Shown piece by piece: positions 35,957 through 45,790 of a DNA stretch of 64,000 bases. Under the pieces are notes generated by a model. The model was given only the letters and a program-made list of their open reading frames with translations, was not told where the DNA came from and made no database searches. The first letter of the stretch is position 1. The number at the start of each line of letters is the position of its first letter. The position numbers and the translations under genes were made by a program. Origin of the DNA: Paracoccaceae bacterium (lineage in GTDB: Bacteria; Pseudomonadota; Alphaproteobacteria; Rhodobacterales; Rhodobacteraceae); contig JAQWNW010000069.1 in the NCBI GenBank assembly GCA_029246285.1, positions 1 to 64,000 of the forward strand, in the 5' to 3' direction.

Positions 35957-36742
35957 TCACTTGCCTTTCCATATAGGATCACGTTTTTCTGAAAAAGCTT
36001 TAGCACCTTCCAATTGATCTTCTGACGAATACAAATGGTCGATAGTGGGATATTGCCTCTTTGTAATTTTGTTCATGACGTCTTGAAATTTTTTATCTTC
36101 CGCATCACGGACAACCTCTTTTATAGCGGCATATACTAGAGGCGGTCCACTGACTAATAAAGTGGCCATCTCCCAAGCAGCTTTAGATAGTTCTTCCTGC
36201 TTTACAATTTTATTAATTAAGCCCCAACCTAGAGCTTCTTTGGCATCAAACCATCTTCCTGTTAACAATAATTCCATCGCGATATGATAAGGAATTCGTT
36301 TGGGAACTTTTACGCTTGCAGCATCAGCTATTGTTCCAGATCTAATTTCAGGTAAAGCAAAGGTCGCATTTTCGGAGGCTATTATTATATCTGCACTAAT
36401 CGCAACCTCTAAACCACCCCCACAGCAAATCCCATTTACAGCAGCTATAATTGGCTTATTCATGTCTCGCATTTCCTGCATTCCTCCAAATCCACCAACG
36501 CCATAATTTCCATCTACAGCATCACCGTCAGCAGCGGCCTTCAGGTCCCACCCAGGGCAGAAGAATTTATTTCCAGCTCCGGTTATAATTCCGACACGTA
36601 AATTTGGATCATCCCTAAATTTTTTAAATACTTCTCCCAATAATTGACTGGTCTTAAGGTCAATTGCATTTGCTTTAGGCCTATTAATTGTTACTTCGAG
36701 TATTCCATTTTCTTGGTGGGTCTGAATAGGGGAATTAAGCAT
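35957..36742 (-). CDS. Enoyl-CoA hydratase/isomerase, CaiD (carnitinyl-CoA dehydratase)-like
   Basis: Crotonase-fold enzyme, 261 residues. The catalytic glutamates are at 112 (GGGLEVAIS) and 132 (ALPEIRSG), in the positions of Glu111 and Glu131 of E. coli CaiD. The similarity to CaiD from memory is strong and runs through DRPKANAID-like RPKANAIDLKTS, FCPGWDLKAAADG and the C-terminal EKRDPIWKGK. Start: AAGGAG precedes two ATGs; 36742 has the better spacing, 36745 is possible. It is the last gene of the DmdA-like operon and fits hydration of an acryloyl- or crotonobetainyl-type CoA. Confidence 0.82.
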   Translation of the reverse strand: MLNSPIQTHQENGILEVTINRPKANAIDLKTSQLLGEVFKKFRDDPNLRVGIITGAGNKFFCPGWDLKAAADGDAVDGNYGVGGFGGMQEMRDMNKPIIAAVNGICCGGGLEVAISADIIIASENATFALPEIRSGTIADAASVKVPKRIPYHIAMELLLTGRWFDAKEALGWGLINKIVKQEELSKAAWEMATLLVSGPPLVYAAIKEVVRDAEDKKFQDVMNKITKRQYPTIDHLYSSEDQLEGAKAFSEKRDPIWKGK

Positions 36743-38766
36743 CATGATCTCCTTAATAATAAATCTGCAGCAATTGCTTTCTCGCGCCCGCAAATTAATG
36801 GATTTACTTCTATTTCTTCTATGGACTTTGAATTATCAATGACGAAATTTTGAATTGACATTATTGCATCTATTATAGCATCTAGATTTGCTTTTGAGTT
36901 ACCACGATATCCATTAATCAAACTATATATTCGTAATTTCTCAAGCGCTTTTAGGATTTCACCTTTCTCTATCGGGATAATAAGTGAAGTTGTATCCTTA
37001 ATTAGTTCCGTAAAGGTTCCACCTGCGGCGATACTTAAGATAAATCCATGCGCTGGGTCACGGACAACGCCAACTAATAACTCAGCAATATTGTCAGTTA
37101 TCATTTCTTCTAAAAGAAAAGATGTTGATTCAATGCGGGTGGCTTCTTTAATAACCTGCTCCTTATTCAAAATGTTAAGTACAACAGCATTAGCCTCTGT
37201 TTTATGAGCAAAACCTTCACCTTTTAATACCAAAGGAAAGCCGATTTCGCTTGATTTATTTGCCGCCTGATTTGGGGTTTTTGCTCGAGTTGATTTTGGG
37301 ACTGCCAATCCATAACTTGACAGAATTTCTTTAGCGCGCCCCTCTGGGATCAGTTGATTCTTTTTTGAACATAAAGGTTTTAAAATAGGCTTAATTAATT
37401 TTGGTGGTTTAATAGCTGCAGCTTCTGCAGCACTAATTGCCTCCTCAATTCCAAACATGGGCACAATCCCAGACATTATGAGTTTCTGAGAGATTTCCTC
37501 CGGTAACAATTCTGGTAGAGTTGCAACCACAGCAACATTAGTTTCAGTATTTTTCTTGGATGAAATTGCTGCATCAATAGCGCATTGCCAGTCCCTCGTG
37601 TCACATCTGTCAGGTCGTGGGAAGTCAAGAATTAACAATGTCAATGCAATGGAAGGATCCATAATCGCGCTCCAGGCTAGCGTCATTGCTTTTGTATCGC
37701 GCCATATATAAGTGTGGTAATCTAATGGATTAGCAAGGGCAACCATTGGTCCTAGTGCTTCACGTAAGTCGTGAGTTTGCCGATCATTCAGTTCAGGAAA
37801 TACTACTTCGTACCCACAAGCAATGTCCGCTACTAGTGACGCCTCACCTCCAGAACAACTGACGGAAGCTAGATTTTTTGACTTCAAAGGCCCCGTTACA
37901 TGTAAAAGTTTTAAGGTCTCTAAAAAAATTGGTAGATTTTTAACCCTAGCTATACCTAAGCGTTTAAATAGTGCATTTGCGCCAGCTTCAGTTCCTGTTA
38001 ATGAGGCGGTATGAGATATTGTTGCTAATTGAGCTTGCTTGGATAAGCCAACCTTTAATACAATTATGCGTTTTTTTAATTTGAGCGCCATTTTTGCTAA
38101 TTCTTCAAAAGCCGAAAGATCTTTTATGCCTTCAATGTGGATTCCTAGGGCTGTTATTCTGTCGTCCTGAAGCAAGTTAGACCCAATTGTAGCGATATCT
38201 ATTTGCGCTTGATTTCCAGCGGCCACCAATGCGGCTATTGGCAGCGCGCGTTGTTGCATAGAAATATTTATCGCGATATTAGAGGACTGTGTAATTATCC
38301 CAACCCCACGATTAACTCTGATTCCACCATGTTGGTCTGGCCAAAGTAAAATTCCATCTAGATAATTTATGAATCCATAACAATTGGGTCCCAAGATAGG
38401 CATATGTTTTGCCGCTTTTAGTAATTTTTGTTGCAAATCCTCAGCATCTGTGTCCTCAGTTTTTGCTTCTAAAAAGCCACTGGCGAAACAAACTGCTCCA
38501 CCAGCGCCAAATTTGGATAATTCTTTAACAATTTCGATTGTTTGAAACCTGTTAACACCAATGAAAGTGGAATCTGGCGCATAAGGTATGTCATTAAGAT
38601 TTTTAAAAGATTTGATGCCACTAATTGACTCTCTTTTGGGATGAATAGGCCAAATTTCTCCATTAAAGTTAATTTTTTTTAATTGTTTAATTACGGACTC
38701 ACACCAAGAACCGCCACCGACAACAGCAATTGATTTTGGTTTGAATAATCTATTAAGGTCTTTCAT
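36742..38766 (-). CDS. ADP-forming acyl-CoA synthetase (ACD superfamily)
   Basis: A 674-residue single-chain ADP-forming CoA ligase: CoA-binding domain (about 1-130), two succinyl-CoA-ligase-like domains (about 150-430), and ATP-grasp domain (about 455-674). His252 in TISHTASLTG is the phospho-histidine; GPNCYGF at 126-132 is also typical. It converts an acid to its CoA thioester. DddX, an ATP-dependent DMSP lyase, belongs to the same superfamily and makes acryloyl-CoA, so two functions are possible: CoA ligase in place of DmdB, or a DddX-like lyase. It overlaps the hydratase start by a base and lies 18 bases after the acyl-CoA dehydrogenase. Confidence 0.85.
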   Translation of the reverse strand: MKDLNRLFKPKSIAVVGGGSWCESVIKQLKKINFNGEIWPIHPKRESISGIKSFKNLNDIPYAPDSTFIGVNRFQTIEIVKELSKFGAGGAVCFASGFLEAKTEDTDAEDLQQKLLKAAKHMPILGPNCYGFINYLDGILLWPDQHGGIRVNRGVGIITQSSNIAINISMQQRALPIAALVAAGNQAQIDIATIGSNLLQDDRITALGIHIEGIKDLSAFEELAKMALKLKKRIIVLKVGLSKQAQLATISHTASLTGTEAGANALFKRLGIARVKNLPIFLETLKLLHVTGPLKSKNLASVSCSGGEASLVADIACGYEVVFPELNDRQTHDLREALGPMVALANPLDYHTYIWRDTKAMTLAWSAIMDPSIALTLLILDFPRPDRCDTRDWQCAIDAAISSKKNTETNVAVVATLPELLPEEISQKLIMSGIVPMFGIEEAISAAEAAAIKPPKLIKPILKPLCSKKNQLIPEGRAKEILSSYGLAVPKSTRAKTPNQAANKSSEIGFPLVLKGEGFAHKTEANAVVLNILNKEQVIKEATRIESTSFLLEEMITDNIAELLVGVVRDPAHGFILSIAAGGTFTELIKDTTSLIIPIEKGEILKALEKLRIYSLINGYRGNSKANLDAIIDAIMSIQNFVIDNSKSIEEIEVNPLICGREKAIAADLLLRRS

Positions 38767-38784
38767 TTTTTTACCTTAAAATTA

Positions 38785-39945
38785 TCATGCACCTAGAGGT
38801 CTCAATAGGTCACGACTAATGATATGTCTCTGAATCTCGGATGTTCCGTCCCAAATTCGTTCTACCCTGGCATCTCGCCAGAATCTTTCAAGAGGGTAGT
38901 CGTCCATAAGTCCCATCCCACCGTGAATTTGAATAGCTGTATCAGTTACTCTTGCAAGCATCTCTGTAGCAAATAGTTTTGCACTCGCAATTTCTCGATT
39001 TGATGGTAGTCCTTTGTCTAAGCGGTCTGCGGCTGCTAGCGTTAAAAGATCGGCTGCATCAATTTCTGTTATCATGTCTGCTATTTGAAAACTTACCCCT
39101 TGAAATTTACCAATTTTCTGTCCAAATTGCTCTCTCTCAGAAGAGTAGTTGAGCGCATAATCAAATACCCGCCTAGCGCGACCCACGCAGTTGGTAGCAA
39201 CGGTAAGACGAGTAGCATATAGCCAAGTATTCATTACTGCAAACCCACCATCTACTTCTCCTAAAACTTGCGAGTTTGGAATCCGACATTCATCAAATTC
39301 CAAAATCATATTCTTATACCCTCGGTGACTTACAGATTTATATCCTTCCCGTATGGTAAACCCAGCTGTTCCTCTATCGACTAAAAATGTAGTAATTCTT
39401 TTTTTAGGGCCCTTTGGTGTTTGGTCTTCTCCGGTAGCTACAAACACAATCACAAAATCTGCATGCTCGGCACCACTAATAAAATGTTTAGTACCGTTTA
39501 TAATCCAATCCTCTCCATCTTGCGTGGCAAAACATTTCATTCCTCTAACGTCTGAGCCGGCATTTGGTTCTGTCATGGCTAAAGCATCCATTTTTTCACC
39601 TTTTATCGCAGGTAAAAGATAACGTTCTTTTTGCTCAGAGTTACATGCCATCAAGATATTTTGTGGGCGGCCAAAAAAATGGCACAAAGCCATTGAACCT
39701 CTACCGAGTTCTCGCTCAACTAGAGTAAATTCTTTATGATTTAAACCTGCTCCGCCCACCTCTTCCGGAAAATTACAAGCATAAAATCCTAAATCAATTG
39801 TTTTTTGCTTTATATCTTGAGCAATTTCTTTTGGTACGGAACCTGTTTTTTCAACTAATTCTTCGTGAGGATATATTTCTTTTTCCACAAATGACCTTAC
39901 CGTTGAAACGATCATTTCTTGTTCTTCATTTAAGCCATATTGCAT
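38785..39945 (-). CDS. Acyl-CoA dehydrogenase
   Basis: FAD-dependent alpha,beta-desaturating dehydrogenase of 386 residues, the common short/medium-chain length, not the roughly 590 of DmdC. FAD and CoA regions are plain: LAMTEPNAGSDVRG near 124-137, IINGTKHFISGAEHADF near 147-163, and QIHGGMGLMDDYPLERFWRD near 337-356. At the position that carries the catalytic Glu in medium-chain enzymes (YEGT) this protein has Asp366 (WDGTSEIQ). ETF and ETF-QO would take the electrons; ETF-QO is at 20.8-22.5 kb. It follows the DmdA-like gene by 17 bases. Confidence 0.9.
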   Translation of the reverse strand: MQYGLNEEQEMIVSTVRSFVEKEIYPHEELVEKTGSVPKEIAQDIKQKTIDLGFYACNFPEEVGGAGLNHKEFTLVERELGRGSMALCHFFGRPQNILMACNSEQKERYLLPAIKGEKMDALAMTEPNAGSDVRGMKCFATQDGEDWIINGTKHFISGAEHADFVIVFVATGEDQTPKGPKKRITTFLVDRGTAGFTIREGYKSVSHRGYKNMILEFDECRIPNSQVLGEVDGGFAVMNTWLYATRLTVATNCVGRARRVFDYALNYSSEREQFGQKIGKFQGVSFQIADMITEIDAADLLTLAAADRLDKGLPSNREIASAKLFATEMLARVTDTAIQIHGGMGLMDDYPLERFWRDARVERIWDGTSEIQRHIISRDLLRPLGA

Positions 39946-39962
39946 TTACAAATTTCCAATTC

Positions 39963-41075
39963 TTAAAGAAACGGTAGCGCTACCACTTGACAATTGCACT
40001 TACCATTAATTGTTTTAACCACAGCACTGTCACCGATTTTTACATTTATATCAATTAAGCTTAAACCAATATTTCTTTCTAAGCGGCGAGACCATACACC
40101 ACTAGTCATTGAGCCAATCTTTTTTCCATCTTGTTCAATATCTAACCATTCAGCCACAACATCAGAAGGAGTATTTCCCTCTAAAATTACTCCAACCTGA
40201 TGTCGCTTCGGACCATCTGATGCAATTTTTCTGAGTGCTTGTATGCCTATCGTATCATCTGGAATATCTAAATCTATATATTTTCCCATACGAATTTCAT
40301 AGGGATTAGTGTTGTCGTCAGTGTCAGAGCCATAGGACAGCAATCCGCTTTCGATACGTTCACTCATGTTGGGATTTCCTGGCCCAATATTCCACGGTTT
40401 ACCAGCTTCACGTACTAAATTCCAAAGTTCCGATGCTTTGCTTCCATCCATAAGGTATAATTCGAAACCACCTTGTTTGGACCATCCAGATCTTGCCACC
40501 TGTAGGGGGATTCCACTTATCTCTGTTTCTTTAAACCAGAAATATTTTAATTCTCTAACCCAGTCGCCGAATATACTTGCTATTACATTTTCTGCTGCTG
40601 GGCCCTGTACTGCCAAGGGAGAAACATCTGGCTCAAATACGTCAACATCTAGGTTTCTCTCAGCGGCTATTGCTCTTGCAAATAATACGATATTATTATC
40701 GGCAATCGATAGCCAATAACGACTCCTTGAAAGCTTTAGGATGATTGGATCGTTAATTATTACTCCGCTATGATTGCATAATGCAACGTATTTGCCCTGC
40801 CCTTCCTTGCATTTTTGTAAATTTCGTGGACAGAGAATTTGCGCTAATTTTTCTGCATCGGGTCCATTTAGCTCGACTTGTCTTTCAACTGCTACGTCCC
40901 ACATTGAAACACCATTAATAATACGCCAGTACTCTTCTTCTGGGTATCCAAACCCAGTTGGCATTAACATATTATTATACGGGTAAAATCCAGTCACTCC
41001 TTCTCGCACAGTAGCATCAAAAAAAGGTGAACGTCTTAAACGGGTGGTAGGGCTAATTTCAAATTTTCTAGTCAT
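39963..41075 (-). CDS. dmdA: DmdA-like methyltransferase (GcvT family, DMSP demethylase type)
   Basis: Tetrahydrofolate-dependent aminomethyltransferase-fold enzyme of 370 residues. The motifs match DmdA rather than GcvT: WDVAVERQV at 59-67, ND at 109-110, SPLAVQGP at 152-159, VARSGWSKQGGFE at 193-205, and ESGLLSYG at 242-249. DmdA moves a methyl group from DMSP to THF, leaving methylmercaptopropionate. Start at 41075 (ATG); a TTG at 41096 is less likely. It heads an operon with acyl-CoA dehydrogenase, CoA ligase and hydratase. Some DmdA-like proteins act on other substrates, so the gene symbol is provisional. Confidence 0.7.
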   Translation of the reverse strand: MTRKFEISPTTRLRRSPFFDATVREGVTGFYPYNNMLMPTGFGYPEEEYWRIINGVSMWDVAVERQVELNGPDAEKLAQILCPRNLQKCKEGQGKYVALCNHSGVIINDPIILKLSRSRYWLSIADNNIVLFARAIAAERNLDVDVFEPDVSPLAVQGPAAENVIASIFGDWVRELKYFWFKETEISGIPLQVARSGWSKQGGFELYLMDGSKASELWNLVREAGKPWNIGPGNPNMSERIESGLLSYGSDTDDNTNPYEIRMGKYIDLDIPDDTIGIQALRKIASDGPKRHQVGVILEGNTPSDVVAEWLDIEQDGKKIGSMTSGVWSRRLERNIGLSLIDINVKIGDSAVVKTINGKCNCQVVALPFL

Positions 41076-41172
41076 TAAATAATTCTCGTTAATCAATTAC
41101 TTTAAATATGTTATAAGGTCATTAAAATTAATATTGTAAATGTCAATTTATAATCATCGATTTATTATGATT

Positions 41173-42054
41173 TCAGCTTTCGACGTTTCGTGAAAATTGT
41201 ACAGCTATAATTCCAATGGAGATTATTATAACACCAATGTAATCTGATGTAGTGATATTCTCTCCTAAAATAATGTAAGCAATTAGAACCCCAAAAAACG
41301 GATTCAAGAAATGGAAGGAAGCTCCCCTAATGGCGCCTACTTCGGATACTAGTATAAACCAAATCCAAGTAGCCAATAAACCTGGTATTAAAGTTGTGTA
41401 GAAAAAAGCAATTATTAAAGAGAATGACCAGGTTATATTTATGTCTTCAAATAAAATTGCAAAAGGGATCAAGGCAAGGCTTCCAATTATCATCTGATAG
41501 CCGATAATTATCCACAAATTTCCACCGGATGTGGCATTTCTAAGGAAAAGTGTTGCTATTGCCAGTGAAATAGCCCCGATCACGCAAAATACTATCCCTA
41601 ATAGGTTGTCCATATCTTCAATACGGTTATTAATTATGAGAAAAACACCGAGGAAACCCAAGGTTAACCCAAAAACGGAAATCAATGTTAGCTTATCTCT
41701 AAATAGACTCCATCCTAAAAAGGCAACAATCAGCGGCATAGTGCTTGCAATAATAGCTGCGATAGCGGCTTCTACTCTCTGCATTGCTATAAAATTGAGC
41801 CCCAAATAAATTGAATTCTGACATATTCCAAAAATTAATGTCGCTTTCCACTGGCTTTTGTTGAGTTTTAACGATTGACCTACCATCCAGCCAATTAGAA
41901 CCGCTATCAATCCAGAAATAATAAATCTAATTGATAAAGCGGATAGAGGGGGAGCGCTATCAACAATTATTCTTGCGGAAGTGAAGGCACTCGACCACAT
42001 AAAAGCAAAAGTTATACCTAATACAAAAGCTCGCAAGCTATAAAATCTCTCCAA
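41173..42054 (-). CDS. DMT (EamA) family transporter
   Basis: Inner-membrane carrier of the drug/metabolite superfamily, 293 residues, ten hydrophobic segments in two EamA repeats (about 8-140, 152-288). The repeat end motif LNPFFGVLIAYIILGENIT is plain. It lies 97 bases before the DmdA-like gene on the same strand, so it could be the first gene of that operon or a separate unit. A terminator separates it from HU. The substrate is unknown, but import or export linked to the demethylation pathway is plausible. Confidence 0.82.
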   Translation of the reverse strand: MERFYSLRAFVLGITFAFMWSSAFTSARIIVDSAPPLSALSIRFIISGLIAVLIGWMVGQSLKLNKSQWKATLIFGICQNSIYLGLNFIAMQRVEAAIAAIIASTMPLIVAFLGWSLFRDKLTLISVFGLTLGFLGVFLIINNRIEDMDNLLGIVFCVIGAISLAIATLFLRNATSGGNLWIIIGYQMIIGSLALIPFAILFEDINITWSFSLIIAFFYTTLIPGLLATWIWFILVSEVGAIRGASFHFLNPFFGVLIAYIILGENITTSDYIGVIIISIGIIAVQFSRNVES

Positions 42055-42058
42055 AATA

Positions 42059-42087
42059 AAAAAGGTCGCTGGATTGGCGACCTTTTT
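42059..42087 (-). terminator. Rho-independent terminator after HU
   Basis: GGTCGC and GCGACC form a stem with A-rich and T-rich flanks (AAAAAGGTCGC ... GCGACCTTTTT) around a seven-base loop. On the minus strand the T tract follows the stem, so it ends the HU transcript 36 bases after its stop. It is nearly symmetric and could also act on rightward reads. Confidence 0.75.
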
Positions 42088-42122
42088 AAATTTATTCTAA
42101 ACTAAAATGTTAAATAAAAAAA

Positions 42123-42413
42123 TTAGCTATTTACGCTATCTTTAAGCGCTTTTGCTATTGTCATTTTAACAACTTTGTCTGCGTCTTTATGCATTTGCTC
42201 GCCAGTTGCAGGGTTTCTAACCATTCGCGCAGGACGTGCTCGGCAATAGATTTTTCCAACACCTGGAAGAGAAACTGCCCCTCCACCTGATACTTCGCTG
42301 GTAATAAGCGCACATAACGCTTCCAGTGAGGCTCCTGCTGATTTTTTGTCTGAACCTGTTGCTTCTGCCAAGGTGGCGATCAACTGTGATTTTGTCATAG
42401 GCTTCTGTGCCAT
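42123..42413 (-). CDS. hup: HU-family DNA-binding protein
   Basis: Histone-like nucleoid protein of 96 residues that binds and bends DNA. The body matches HU: MTKSQLIATLAEATGSDKKSAG, a conserved GVGKIYCRARPARMVRNPATGEQM which includes the DNA-gripping arm, and the C-terminal helix KMTIAKALKDSVN. Start ATG with GGGAG upstream. It may be an HU beta-like or IHF-like form but the RNPATGE block points to HU. Its own terminator follows. Confidence 0.92.
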   Translation of the reverse strand: MAQKPMTKSQLIATLAEATGSDKKSAGASLEALCALITSEVSGGGAVSLPGVGKIYCRARPARMVRNPATGEQMHKDADKVVKMTIAKALKDSVNS

Positions 42414-42530
42414 ATAGCTGCTCCCTAAAGTTAGGTCTCAAAATGAGACTATTAAAATTTATTAAAACCGAATTATTTGTCTTGTATAACAATTTGTATG
42501 CTTAGACACCAATAAAATAAAGAGTTTTTT

Positions 42531-43973
42531 TTAAAGGAATGCAGTTTCTTCAAAACTTCGTAATTTTCGCGAGTGTAATTGCTCTAAAGGCATCAGTTTG
42601 AGGGATTCCATTGCCTTGATTCCAATACTTAAATGCCTTTTAACTTGTGTATTGTAAAATTCAGTTGCCATACCTGGCAATTTTAGCTCACCGTGTAAGG
42701 GCCTATCTGAAATGCATAGCAAAGTCCCATATGGGACTCTAAAGCGAAATCCATTTGCAGCTATAGTGGCGCTTTCCATATCTAAAGCAATAGCTCTGCT
42801 TTGGGAGAGCCGTTGCACAGGTCCTGACTGATCTCGCAGTTCCCAGTTTCTATTGTCTATTGTGGCCACTGTGCCCGTTCGCATAATATTTTTTAACTCA
42901 AATCCAGCTAGTTTCGTAATATCTTTAACTGCTGTTTCCATAGCAATTTGAACTTCAGCTAATGCAGGGATAGGGACCCAAACAGGAATATCTTCATCTA
43001 ATACATGATCTTCTCTGACATAGGCATGGGCAAGTACATAATCACCTAATCTTTGGGAAGCCCTCAACCCAGCACAATGACCCAACATTATCCATGCGTG
43101 GGGTCGCAATACGGAGACATGATCAGTGGCAGTTTTTGCATTTGATGGTCCAATACCAATATTAACTAAAGTTATTCCACTTCCATCAGGACCCTTAAGA
43201 TGATAGGTGGGCATTTGCGGTAATTTTTTATTAAGTTCTTTTGCATTAGATTTAATATCAATTATTTTATTTCCTGGTCCAACTAACTCAAAGTAATCGT
43301 TTGAATTATCCTCAATTGCCAAATTTGCGTATTTAATGAATTCCTCGACATAAAATTGATAATTGGTAAATAAGATATGATTTTGAAAGTGTTTGGGTTC
43401 GGTGGCGGTATAATGTTCGATTCTAGCCAATGAATAGTCAATCCGTTGAGCTGTGAAAGGGGCTAAGGGTTTTTCATTAGACTTTTTTAATGTACCATTT
43501 ACGATATCATCATTTGTATTTGATAAATTTGGGACGTCAAAATAATCTCTCAATGTAAAGTTAAGGCTACTAGTATTGATATTGGTAGTCAGTTTTTCTT
43601 TTAAGGCAAAATGTATCGGTATCGGGGTATTAGAGTACTCTATTTGAATTGGAACATTATGATTTTTTATTAGTAATGATAATTGCTGAATTAAGTACTG
43701 TTCAAATAATTTTGGTCTAGTGATAGTTGTTACATAAATTCCTGGCCCATTCACATGCCCGAATGCTAAGCGACTATCGATTGCTACAAAGCTATCAATT
43801 TTTATTTTGATTTGTGGATAATATTCTTGAATTTTATATTTTGGAGGCGAGCCTTTCACTGCAACTTCAAAAGCTTCTTGAAGATTTTTTATGGAGTGAT
43901 CATATAAGTGTTTTAATTGTTTGACGGCCTCTGTCGCATCATTAAAAATATAATTTTTCTTTTTCGAGTTCAT
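42531..43973 (-). CDS. amn: AMP nucleosidase
   Basis: Hydrolyses AMP to adenine and ribose 5-phosphate, controlling the adenylate pool. The 480-residue protein has the N-terminal Amn domain (about 1-170) and the nucleoside phosphorylase-type catalytic domain (about 265-470) with GIGPSNAKTATDHVSVLRPHAWIMLGHCAGLR near 275-305 and LDMESATIAANGFRF near 407-421. It overlaps the adenine deaminase gene upstream by ATGA, and the two enzymes act in series: AMP to adenine to hypoxanthine. Confidence 0.93.
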   Translation of the reverse strand: MNSKKKNYIFNDATEAVKQLKHLYDHSIKNLQEAFEVAVKGSPPKYKIQEYYPQIKIKIDSFVAIDSRLAFGHVNGPGIYVTTITRPKLFEQYLIQQLSLLIKNHNVPIQIEYSNTPIPIHFALKEKLTTNINTSSLNFTLRDYFDVPNLSNTNDDIVNGTLKKSNEKPLAPFTAQRIDYSLARIEHYTATEPKHFQNHILFTNYQFYVEEFIKYANLAIEDNSNDYFELVGPGNKIIDIKSNAKELNKKLPQMPTYHLKGPDGSGITLVNIGIGPSNAKTATDHVSVLRPHAWIMLGHCAGLRASQRLGDYVLAHAYVREDHVLDEDIPVWVPIPALAEVQIAMETAVKDITKLAGFELKNIMRTGTVATIDNRNWELRDQSGPVQRLSQSRAIALDMESATIAANGFRFRVPYGTLLCISDRPLHGELKLPGMATEFYNTQVKRHLSIGIKAMESLKLMPLEQLHSRKLRSFEETAFL

Positions 43974-45790
43974 AATGATTCCACTAATTCGGTAATTTCA
44001 AATTTTGTCACATCTACTAAACCTAAATCAGAAATGCGAAGTTCTGGAATTACTGCCAGTCCTAGTAGTGAATGTTGCATATATCCGTTATTAATATTAC
44101 AGCCACATTCTTCCATTGCTGAAACCATATCATTTGCTTGATCTGCGACTATTCTGGCTGAAGAATCTGACATTAGACCAGCGATCCGTAAAGATACGGT
44201 TGCAAGTTCCTCCCCGTCTTTAAACACCGTTACCCCACCACCAATTGACGCTAAATGGTTGCCCGCTAATGCCATATTTTCATGGTCTGTGCCAACAATA
44301 ATCATATGGTGACTGTCATGAGCAACTGTAGAAGCGACCGCGCATTTTGTACTGTATCCAAATCCAGATACAAACCCATTCACAATATTCCCTGAGCCTT
44401 GATGTCTTTCAACTAGTGCAACATGGCAGATATCTTTTGATAGGTTGCTACAAATATAGCCGTTTTTAATTTGTAAGACCTCAGTCATTAATTTTGTTGG
44501 GGCTTGGTTTTCAATAACACCGATTATTTTCACTTTGACAGAATTTTGTTTGTTAGTAGCAGGGATTAGAAAGTCTTTGTGATTTAATTCGTTCTTTAGG
44601 TTAACAGTATTTTTTACTTCATTTGGCCATTCTAAAAGGATTGGGTCAATTAAGGTCTTGCCATTTTCTGCTACAATATTTCCTCGAGCTAACACAACCT
44701 CTATTGGTAGTTCTGTTAAGTTACTTGTTAATATAAGATCTGCTCTTCTTCCGGGTGCAATCGATCCAATTTCTCTTTCAAGGCCAAAGTGAGTGGAAGT
44801 ATTTAGAGTAGCCATTTGAATTGCTTCAATTGGATTGCATCCACATTCTATGGCGTGACGTACTACTCTATTCATATGGCCATCATGAACGATTGTTCCT
44901 GAGTGACAATCATCTGTACAAAGAATGAAATTTCTTGAGTCTAGGTTTTTTTCAGTAATCGCCGTAATCTGTCGCTTTACATCATACCATGCGGATCCTA
45001 GCCTCATCATTGGTTTTATTCCCTGCCTTGCCCGCGCTATAGCGTCTTCTTCTGTAGTTCCTTCGTGATCATCTGCTACCCCACTTGCAATATAGGCATG
45101 AAAATTAATACCTAGATCAGGGCTCGCGTAATGACCACCAACGGTCTTTCCAGCAGCTTGAGTAGCAGTGATTTCTGATAAAAGATTGCTGTCCCCTCTT
45201 ATGATACCTGGAAAATTCATCATTTCTCCCAGTCCAATTATTCCCGGCCATTTCATGGCTTCTTCTACGTCTTTTGGGGTTATTTCAAATCCAGTAGTTT
45301 CAAGACCTGGGGCTGAAGGTGCGCATGAAGGCATTTGTGTAAAAATATTTATGGGTTGCAAAATAGCTTCATCGTGCATGAGTTTTACGCCTTTTAAGCC
45401 TAAGACATTCGCAATTTCGTGAGGATCCGTGAACATCGTTGTTGTTCCATGTGCAATTACGGCGTTGGCAAACTGTCCTGGTGTCAGCATTCCGCTTTCA
45501 ATATGCATATGGGCATCACAAAGTCCTGGAATGGCAAACCTGCCATCAGCCTCAATAATTTTGGTATTCTTACCAATGCAGTGTTTAATTTCAGTACCAC
45601 AATAGGCAAATCTACCATTTTTAATGGCGATGTTATAATTTGATAATATTTCTCTGGTATGAACATTTACCCAAGAGCAGTTTTTTATAACTGTATCTGC
45701 GGGTTTTTTTCCAGAGGCGACGGCTATTAGATTGGCTGCGCTGTCTGCCCAAGTCATAAAATTATTATTTTCCATATACAATTCTGACAT
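43970..45790 (-). CDS. ade: Adenine deaminase
   Basis: Metal-dependent amidohydrolase-fold enzyme that deaminates adenine to hypoxanthine. Its 606 residues carry the metal ligands His94 and His96 in CDAHMHIESG and the ADE C-terminal domain with HDSHHMIIVGTDHENMALA near 515-533. An alternative start is five codons later. The gene is just upstream of amn with coupled translation, forming a purine salvage or AMP breakdown unit. It is divergent from the ImuB-like gene over 104 bases. Confidence 0.93.
   Translation of the reverse strand: MSELYMENNNFMTWADSAANLIAVASGKKPADTVIKNCSWVNVHTREILSNYNIAIKNGRFAYCGTEIKHCIGKNTKIIEADGRFAIPGLCDAHMHIESGMLTPGQFANAVIAHGTTTMFTDPHEIANVLGLKGVKLMHDEAILQPINIFTQMPSCAPSAPGLETTGFEITPKDVEEAMKWPGIIGLGEMMNFPGIIRGDSNLLSEITATQAAGKTVGGHYASPDLGINFHAYIASGVADDHEGTTEEDAIARARQGIKPMMRLGSAWYDVKRQITAITEKNLDSRNFILCTDDCHSGTIVHDGHMNRVVRHAIECGCNPIEAIQMATLNTSTHFGLEREIGSIAPGRRADLILTSNLTELPIEVVLARGNIVAENGKTLIDPILLEWPNEVKNTVNLKNELNHKDFLIPATNKQNSVKVKIIGVIENQAPTKLMTEVLQIKNGYICSNLSKDICHVALVERHQGSGNIVNGFVSGFGYSTKCAVASTVAHDSHHMIIVGTDHENMALAGNHLASIGGGVTVFKDGEELATVSLRIAGLMSDSSARIVADQANDMVSAMEECGCNINNGYMQHSLLGLAVIPELRISDLGLVDVTKFEITELVESL

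Follow-up and report, generated by a model that had tools for sequence, protein, structure and literature searches.

We describe a four-gene operon on the reverse strand of a 64,000-nucleotide stretch of Paracoccaceae bacterium DNA (contig JAQWNW010000069.1, positions 1 to 64,000; in the following called the window), which lies within a 2.27-Mb genome (G000) of 87 contigs from a group of uncultured ocean bacteria. In this operon (35957–41075), a gene for a demethylase of the DmdA family is followed by genes for an acyl-CoA dehydrogenase, an ADP-forming CoA ligase and a CaiD-like crotonase. Judged from sequence and genomic context, the last three genes (the trio below) appear to form a module for the use of gamma-butyrobetaine, to which a demethylase of a non-canonical lineage, named C1, was added. 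The demethylase would serve the same osmolyte programme, with an onium acid as its candidate substrate. We assign this combined reading a probability of about 0.5.

The demethylase gene (39963–41075) encodes 370 amino acids from an ATG, with GCV_T and GCV_T_C domains; its longest open reading frame (ORF) starts from a TTG at 41096. The dehydrogenase gene follows after 17 bases (38785–39945; 386 amino acids; PF00441, PF02770 and PF02771), encoding a proposed gamma-butyrobetainyl-CoA dehydrogenase. Another 18 bases separate it from the gene for the single-chain ligase (36742–38766; 674 amino acids; CoA_binding_2, Succ_CoA_lig and ATP-grasp_5 domains; phospho-histidine H252), a proposed gamma-butyrobetaine:CoA ligase. 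The ligase gene overlaps by one base (TGATG) with the crotonase gene (35957–36742; 261 amino acids from an ATG, longest ORF from a TTG at 36793), whose ECH_1-domain product is proposed to be a crotonobetainyl-CoA hydratase and has NF002936 as its best NCBIfam model (301.9 bits). A first-pass annotation of this DNA had listed four leftward ORFs with these coordinates and gaps, all of which our ORF check confirmed. Its four functional classes agree with the Pfam and NCBIfam domain assignments. The ligase is of the ACD type, as had been stated, with phospho-histidine, CoA-binding and ATP-grasp domains present, and the description of the hydratase as CaiD-like fits its best NCBIfam model, that of crotonobetainyl-CoA hydratase.

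The identical four-gene order was present in all three genomes of the genus that were searched, at four loci (the window, L201, L202 and L203), and the arrangement is therefore more than chance. L201 and L202 come from separate contigs of the same bin (G577; completeness 82%, contamination 7%), in which two strains may be present. Counterparts of the demethylase with 96–97% identity were found on two contigs of the metagenome-assembled genome 'Rhodobacteraceae bacterium isolate SAT2'.

To place the trio, we turned to 196 genomes of the order. The ligase had matches in 141 of them, and in 137 these were orthologues (at least 43% identity); the other four (G066, G110, G133 and G159), with ligase paralogues of 32–37% identity as their sole matches, were excluded from the trio set prior to the counts. 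Carnitine 3-dehydrogenase, counted at an E-value of 1e-120 or better, occurred in 160 genomes and exceeded the curated cut-off in 156. Both the trio and this enzyme were encoded in 137 genomes, the trio only in none, the enzyme only in 23 and neither in 36. We then sampled 60 trio loci in stretches of 11–20 kb: the 40 that ranked highest after the window, and 20 of lower rank. All three trio genes were present in 59; L068, which starts at a contig end, is without the dehydrogenase. Carnitine 3-dehydrogenase lies within 19 of the 60 stretches and a BKACE gene (dehydrocarnitine-cleavage family) within 20, on the same strand as the trio and either adjoining it or a few genes away. A representative carnitine 3-dehydrogenase from these loci scored 720 bits against the curated cut-off of 592. 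No DmdA-like gene was found in any of the 60 stretches, and the trio is older than the demethylase at the operon head. Carnitine 3-dehydrogenase over the cut-off and BKACE are encoded in all three genomes of the genus. In the genome of the window both are on a contig labelled C1 (a contig number, not the lineage), with 666.5 bits against 592 for the former and 314.8 bits for the latter.

The trio also resembles gene rows of other bacteria. In Rhizobium etli p42c, the carnitine operon (RHE_RS23475–23515) encodes BKACE, carnitine 3-dehydrogenase, acyl-CoA dehydrogenase, ligase, carnitinyl-CoA dehydratase and an ABC transporter; it contains the same trio in the same order, with the dehydrogenase, ligase and hydratase 73, 50 and 70% identical to those of the window. 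The order is the same in Ruegeria pomeroyi (SPO_RS21280, 21275 and 21265; 85, 52 and 75% identity), where a DJ-1/PfpI gene lies between ligase and hydratase and no carnitine dehydrogenase was found in the 18-kb stretch around the trio. The hydratase orthologues of both species are annotated as carnitinyl-CoA dehydratase. In the window, by comparison with these two species, neither carnitine dehydrogenase nor BKACE adjoins the trio, and the DmdA-family gene stands in front of it. A further precedent is the gamma-butyrobetaine pathway of S. meliloti, reportedly the subject of a 2019 paper in the Journal of Bacteriology, in which to our knowledge no demethylase has been reported. Its ligase BcoAB is presumably a two-part enzyme, judged from the name alone, whereas the ligase of the window is single-chain. 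In the part of PMC8364193 available to us, BcoAB is used as a gamma-butyrobetaine:CoA ligase with ATP and CoA, likewise a CoA-ligase route from gamma-butyrobetaine.

Because of the carnitine-operon context, the co-occurrence across genomes, the R. etli row and the BcoAB precedent, we consider it very probable that the trio turns gamma-butyrobetaine into carnitinyl-CoA. Residue conservation argues in the same direction. At near-invariant columns (at least 97% one residue across the other genomes), the window agrees at 118 of 122 positions of the hydratase, 169 of 172 of the dehydrogenase and 122 of 126 of the ligase, and most of its changes at these columns are conservative. With nearly all of these residues kept, carnitinyl-CoA is most likely what the trio makes from gamma-butyrobetaine.

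The best PDB match of the ligase is the dimethylsulfoniopropionate (DMSP) lyase DddX (7cm9; 185 bits), which raises the alternative that the ligase acts as a lyase of the DddX type, in an operon for DMSP cleavage. H252 aligns with His292 of DddX and is conserved in all 60 relatives. For DddX, the accessible passages of PMC8163506 assign catalysis to Glu432 and cation-pi contacts to Trp391 and Phe435; the ligase has T390, H351 and W393, respectively, at these positions. Of these residues, only the phospho-histidine is common to both. The active-site residues thus rule out the ligase as DddX, and a cleavage route is highly improbable.

The first-pass annotation had instead taken the three CoA enzymes for substitutes of DmdB, DmdC and DmdD. 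In such a route, C1 would convert DMSP to methylmercaptopropionate (MMPA) and the trio, moonlighting or retuned, would yield MMPA-CoA, methylthioacryloyl-CoA and its hydrate. The substitution was not borne out, given that carnitine 3-dehydrogenase accompanies the trio in 137 of 137 trio genomes among the 196 and that the trio residues are nearly unchanged relative to relatives that all carry it. Not found without this gene in the 196 genomes, the trio was rejected as a DMSP module. The enzymes also differ from the canonical ones in type: the ligase is ACD and not AMP-forming, the dehydrogenase has 386 amino acids compared with about 590 in DmdC, and the crotonase is CaiD-like, with DmdD (4izb) absent from the best 60 of its 212 PDB matches. 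Moreover, contig C47 of the genome encodes both a canonical, roseobacter-type DmdA (552.9 bits with NF009133) and a DmdB-like ligase (737.6 of 822 bits), and there are three dehydrogenases of DmdC size on other contigs, 37–44% identical to that of locus L170 (see below). What speaks for a substituted route is that the genus is without a close DmdD (best match 31%), that DmdB and DmdC are broad according to the seen portion of PMC5395565, and that relatives of C1 head clusters of an AMP-binding ligase, a DmdC type and DmdD. Two of the genomes with such clusters (G062 and G132) have only two DmdA-family matches each (E-value of 1e-60 or better), neither in the canonical lineage. AcuH can stand in for DmdD, as stated in excerpts of PMC5395565 and PMC10746254. 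Since DMSP genes exist elsewhere in the genome and DmdD is replaceable by AcuH, a second, substituted DMSP route is possible but not called for. As an explanation of the operon, we regard it as unlikely. The fallback suggestion of the same annotation, another methylated osmolyte with carnitine-type substrates, is supported.

The demethylase itself is related to but distinct from canonical DmdA by sequence comparison. DmdA (NF009133) is its best NCBIfam match, with 371.5 bits under the cut-off of 410, and it matches the SAR11 DmdA structure 3tfh with 271 bits. A tree of 72 family members places SAR11 DmdA together with the C47 type of the genus, to the exclusion of the window protein, which belongs to a separate supported group of 18 rows, named C1. 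A topology that unites the DmdA rows with the window genus in a single clade was rejected (p-AU 0.013), in an AU (approximately unbiased) test that was run after the tree had been seen and with SAR11 as a long branch and the only proven DmdA in the tree. The protein thus falls outside the DmdA clade in which the earlier proposal would have placed it. It shares with the SAR11 and C47 proteins the Pfam domains, the NDP motif and the residues W198, E205 and Y207. These correspond to W171, E178 and Y180 of PMC7487153, which we mapped to W197, E204 and Y206 of SAR11; the passages seen of that study describe them as the DMSP-contact Trp and the Glu and Tyr for tetrahydrofolate (THF), with the Trp also occurring in non-DmdA clades. 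Since the Trp is found there too, these residues are not diagnostic for DmdA.

Divergence as such does not speak against DMSP as a substrate. The DmdA of SAR92 is functional at 38–40% identity to R. pomeroyi DmdA, according to the available portion of PMC10746254, so that about 40% identity to a proven DmdA is compatible with activity. This also favours the substituted DMSP route to some extent, as the SAR92 cluster (dmdA-acuH-dmdB-dmdC) combines a divergent working DmdA with the same four enzyme classes as the window. The likeness is one of enzyme classes as described in the sections seen of that paper, and the SAR92 cluster has a DmdB-type ligase and a gene order unlike that of the window.

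With four rows outside C1 (L161, L106, L176 and L139) set aside from the column counts, the genus agrees with the C1 lineage at 127 of 131 near-invariant columns and differs at N127, F132, A214 and V294. We dropped the idea of a shifted pocket in the C1 proteins of the genus, as four of 131 columns give no argument without ligand coordinates. One of the rows set aside, L161 (contig C52 of the same genome), represents a third lineage of the DmdA family, about 44% identical to the window protein and with 363.3 bits on the DmdA model, which recurs in related genomes.

To see what C1 associates with elsewhere, we examined the gene neighbourhoods of the best 80 of at least 577 relatives, of which two are from the genus and the other 78 were counted, together with 22 DmdA-family members outside C1 as controls. 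A DmdD match of at least 55% identity was found in the stretch in 9 of 78 C1 loci, 0 of 60 trio loci and 0 of 22 controls, and a DmdC-type match of at least 40% in 6 of 78, 0 of 60 and 2 of 22. The order C1, AMP-binding ligase, DmdC type, DmdD occurs in G062 (L170) and Marivivens sp. LCG002 (L345, by length and coordinates identical with L167 of G132); a Beijerinckiaceae bin (L316) has C1 with the same three types. The demethylases of L345 and L316 belong to the same C1 lineage (60% identity) and are likewise followed by ligase, dehydrogenase and hydratase; the window has the gamma-butyrobetaine trio instead of the AMP-binding, DmdC and DmdD types. The AMP-binding ligases of the G062 and Marivivens clusters score below the DmdB cut-off (305–311 of 822 bits). 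The genomes with C1 near DmdC or DmdD types are alpha- and gammaproteobacterial, with one actinobacterial bin (L296). In a quick tree, these contexts are scattered over several places of C1, and the window genus forms a separate deep branch that is not nested among them.

Carnitine-type genes were also found near C1. A substrate-binding protein 59–63% identical to one from a trio/carnitine locus is encoded within 5 kb of C1 in L264, L267, L273 and L321 (4 of 78, compared with 0 of 22 controls). In L273, a class II aldolase of the type associated with the trio (77% identity) lies 36 bases upstream of C1; at 45% identity or more, this aldolase occurs in 2 of 78 C1 loci and 0 of 22 controls. The idea that carnitine genes mark C1 specifically was rejected, because the non-C1 control L197 contains both carnitine 3-dehydrogenase and BKACE and the link is therefore weak. 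A 3-hydroxybutyrate dehydrogenase was likewise rejected as a C1 signature: the corresponding short-chain dehydrogenase/reductase cluster occurs in 16 loci, but a match of at least 50% to a true 3-hydroxybutyrate dehydrogenase in only 3 of 78. Other neighbours of C1 are a VanA-type Rieske oxygenase with a ketopantoate hydroxymethyltransferase-like protein, FAD oxidoreductases and 3-oxoacid CoA-transferase. The Rieske oxygenase pair lies near C1 in L168, L169, L171, L172 and L190 (families searched on L168 and L169 only), and in Planktomarina-related bins (L300, L304, L312 and L318) the C1 gene is followed by both 3-oxoacid CoA-transferase subunits. In view of these varied neighbourhoods, the C1 lineage probably comprises onium demethylases that differ in substrate.

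Several observations weigh against a common osmolyte programme of C1 and the trio. Their adjacency was seen within one genus only. The DmdC and DmdD neighbours of C1 relatives point to DMSP/MMPA for the lineage, and because they adjoin C1 outside the genus, a DMSP-type substrate is possible for the first gene alone. Carnitine 3-dehydrogenase is found in 1 of 78 C1 loci (L321) and BKACE in none of the 78, while one of the 22 controls, L197, has both in its stretch (56 and 63% identity). Only 5 of 60 trio loci have the carnitine-type binding protein nearby, and that of R. etli is 43–48% identical to the others. As to the trio, carnitine 3-dehydrogenase is located outside the operon of the window, on another contig. 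The hydratase is under the CaiD equivalog cut-off (NF002936, 301.9 against 500 bits), the dehydrogenase is under that of CaiA (163.7 against 540 bits), and the deviations of the window at near-invariant columns (4, 3 and 4) are at the upper end of the range of single other rows (0–5). Finally, a literature search of titles, beginnings of abstracts and passages, covering few subscription papers, returned no single-chain ligase of this kind described as acting on gamma-butyrobetaine. Within the same scope, a DmdA-like demethylase together with a gamma-butyrobetaine/carnitine trio was not described, and the combination of DmdA, ADP-forming ligase and demethylation led to the DddX work only.

Two further readings bear on the relation between C1 and the trio. 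C1 and the trio may share nothing but a transcript, with C1 as a DMSP-type demethylase feeding MMPA to DmdB and DmdC encoded elsewhere, the trio separately degrading gamma-butyrobetaine and both being induced with algal osmolytes. The 127 conserved C1 columns, the nearly unchanged trio and the DmdA, DmdB-like and DmdC-size genes elsewhere fit this reading; a spacing of 17 bases, which usually means one pathway, and the canonical DmdA already in the genome do not. We regard it as doubtful, if conceivable. Alternatively, C1 could be a folate-dependent demethylase of quaternary ammonium acids of the gamma-butyrobetaine type, transferring a methyl group from gamma-butyrobetaine (or crotonobetaine or carnitine) onto THF, after which the trio would work on the dimethylamino acid towards dimethylglycine. 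We know of no established cobalamin-free direct methyl transfer from a quaternary ammonium compound to THF, which counts against such a reaction, as do the DmdC and DmdD neighbours of C1, which point to sulfonium substrates, and the MTTB-family proteins of the genome, which could perform ammonium demethylation. On the other side are the position of C1 at the operon head in three of three genus genomes, its links to carnitine-type genes in other lineages and a cobalamin-dependent precedent, MtyB of a gut bacterium (PMC8604678). Overall, demethylation of gamma-butyrobetaine by C1 seems distinctly improbable. Both readings overlap the one that we prefer, and the odds given do not sum to one.

C1 most likely acts in the osmolyte programme of the trio; a DMSP route that begins with C1 and has the trio in place of DmdB, DmdC and DmdD is less likely. 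According to our preferred reading, the genus would have gained the demethylase gene at the head of a conserved gamma-butyrobetaine-to-carnitine module. The ligase would phosphorylate itself on H252 and make gamma-butyrobetainyl-CoA, which the dehydrogenase would oxidize to crotonobetainyl-CoA and the hydratase would convert with water to carnitinyl-CoA. After thioester cleavage, carnitine 3-dehydrogenase and BKACE, encoded elsewhere in the genome, would lead towards glycine betaine. More tentatively than for the trio, C1 is predicted to be a THF-dependent methyltransferase, from a sister lineage of DmdA, that transfers a methyl group from an onium carboxylate, giving methyl-THF. Its substrate may be an omega-onium acid whose uptake accompanies or resembles that of gamma-butyrobetaine, and a sulfonium compound (DMSP or a homologue) would be chemically easiest. 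Demethylation of glycine betaine by C1 as a gap-filler was discarded, there being no evident gap given eight MTTB-family matches in the genome, some of which are fragments at contig ends. With 19 GCV_T-domain matches over the cut-off in addition to these eight, the genome apparently has many one-carbon and demethylation genes for its small size.

Upstream of the demethylase gene, at a distance of 97 bases and on the same strand, lies a gene for an EamA-family permease (41173–42054), which is possibly co-transcribed. A two-way, terminator-like hairpin of 13 pairs (42059–42087; a pattern match only) just upstream of the EamA ORF is a possible upstream border of the transcription unit. The pattern scan gave 10 terminator-like sites in the window where 6.1 were expected; a promoter scan was uninformative (13 promoter-like sites, 20.7 expected). 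Among the 60 trio loci, 16 have an EamA gene in the sampled stretch. In the window, the permease gene belongs to an adenine deaminase/AMP nucleosidase/EamA block (41173–45790), whose order and strand relative to the trio are opposite to those in a number of sampled trio loci, and the demethylase gene sits at the joint between trio and block. Recurrent near the trio (L039–L098) are also a class II aldolase (20 of 60), a small protein labelled SelT-like from its sequence (9 of 60) and a GlxA-type regulator (33 of 60), the last of which is not among the immediate neighbours of the window operon. Two further clusters of the same genome, L221 (contig C26, approximately 91.6–100.2 kb) and L222 (C42, approximately 0.5–9.0 kb), are nearly parallel. 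They encode an ADP-forming ligase, an acyl-CoA dehydrogenase, BKACE, a carnitine-dehydrogenase-like protein of 312 amino acids and a CaiD-like crotonase, followed by two genes whose products resemble a luciferase-type monooxygenase and an aldehyde dehydrogenase (names read from sequence). These clusters look like a relative of the gamma-butyrobetaine route.

We regard the operon as a novel form of a known one, in which a C1 demethylase gene heads the proposed gamma-butyrobetaine module. For 137 of the 196 related genomes searched, the trio provides the probable genetic basis for using gamma-butyrobetaine. Genes of the C1 type are easily taken for dmdA, as DmdA is their best NCBIfam model, and may then enter counts of marine DMSP demethylation; since the surroundings in the window point to a nitrogen osmolyte route, counts based on this family need to be split by lineage. 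The widespread C1 lineage is a candidate second demethylase of DMSP or related onium compounds. If C1 did act on gamma-butyrobetaine, this would be the first case of a methyl group passing directly from a quaternary amine to THF without cobalamin or oxygen, on a route from gamma-butyrobetaine via dimethylaminobutyryl-CoA to dimethylglycine. More broadly, C1 would be a second widespread lineage of onium demethylases, pairing with whichever CoA oxidation set fits the substrate.

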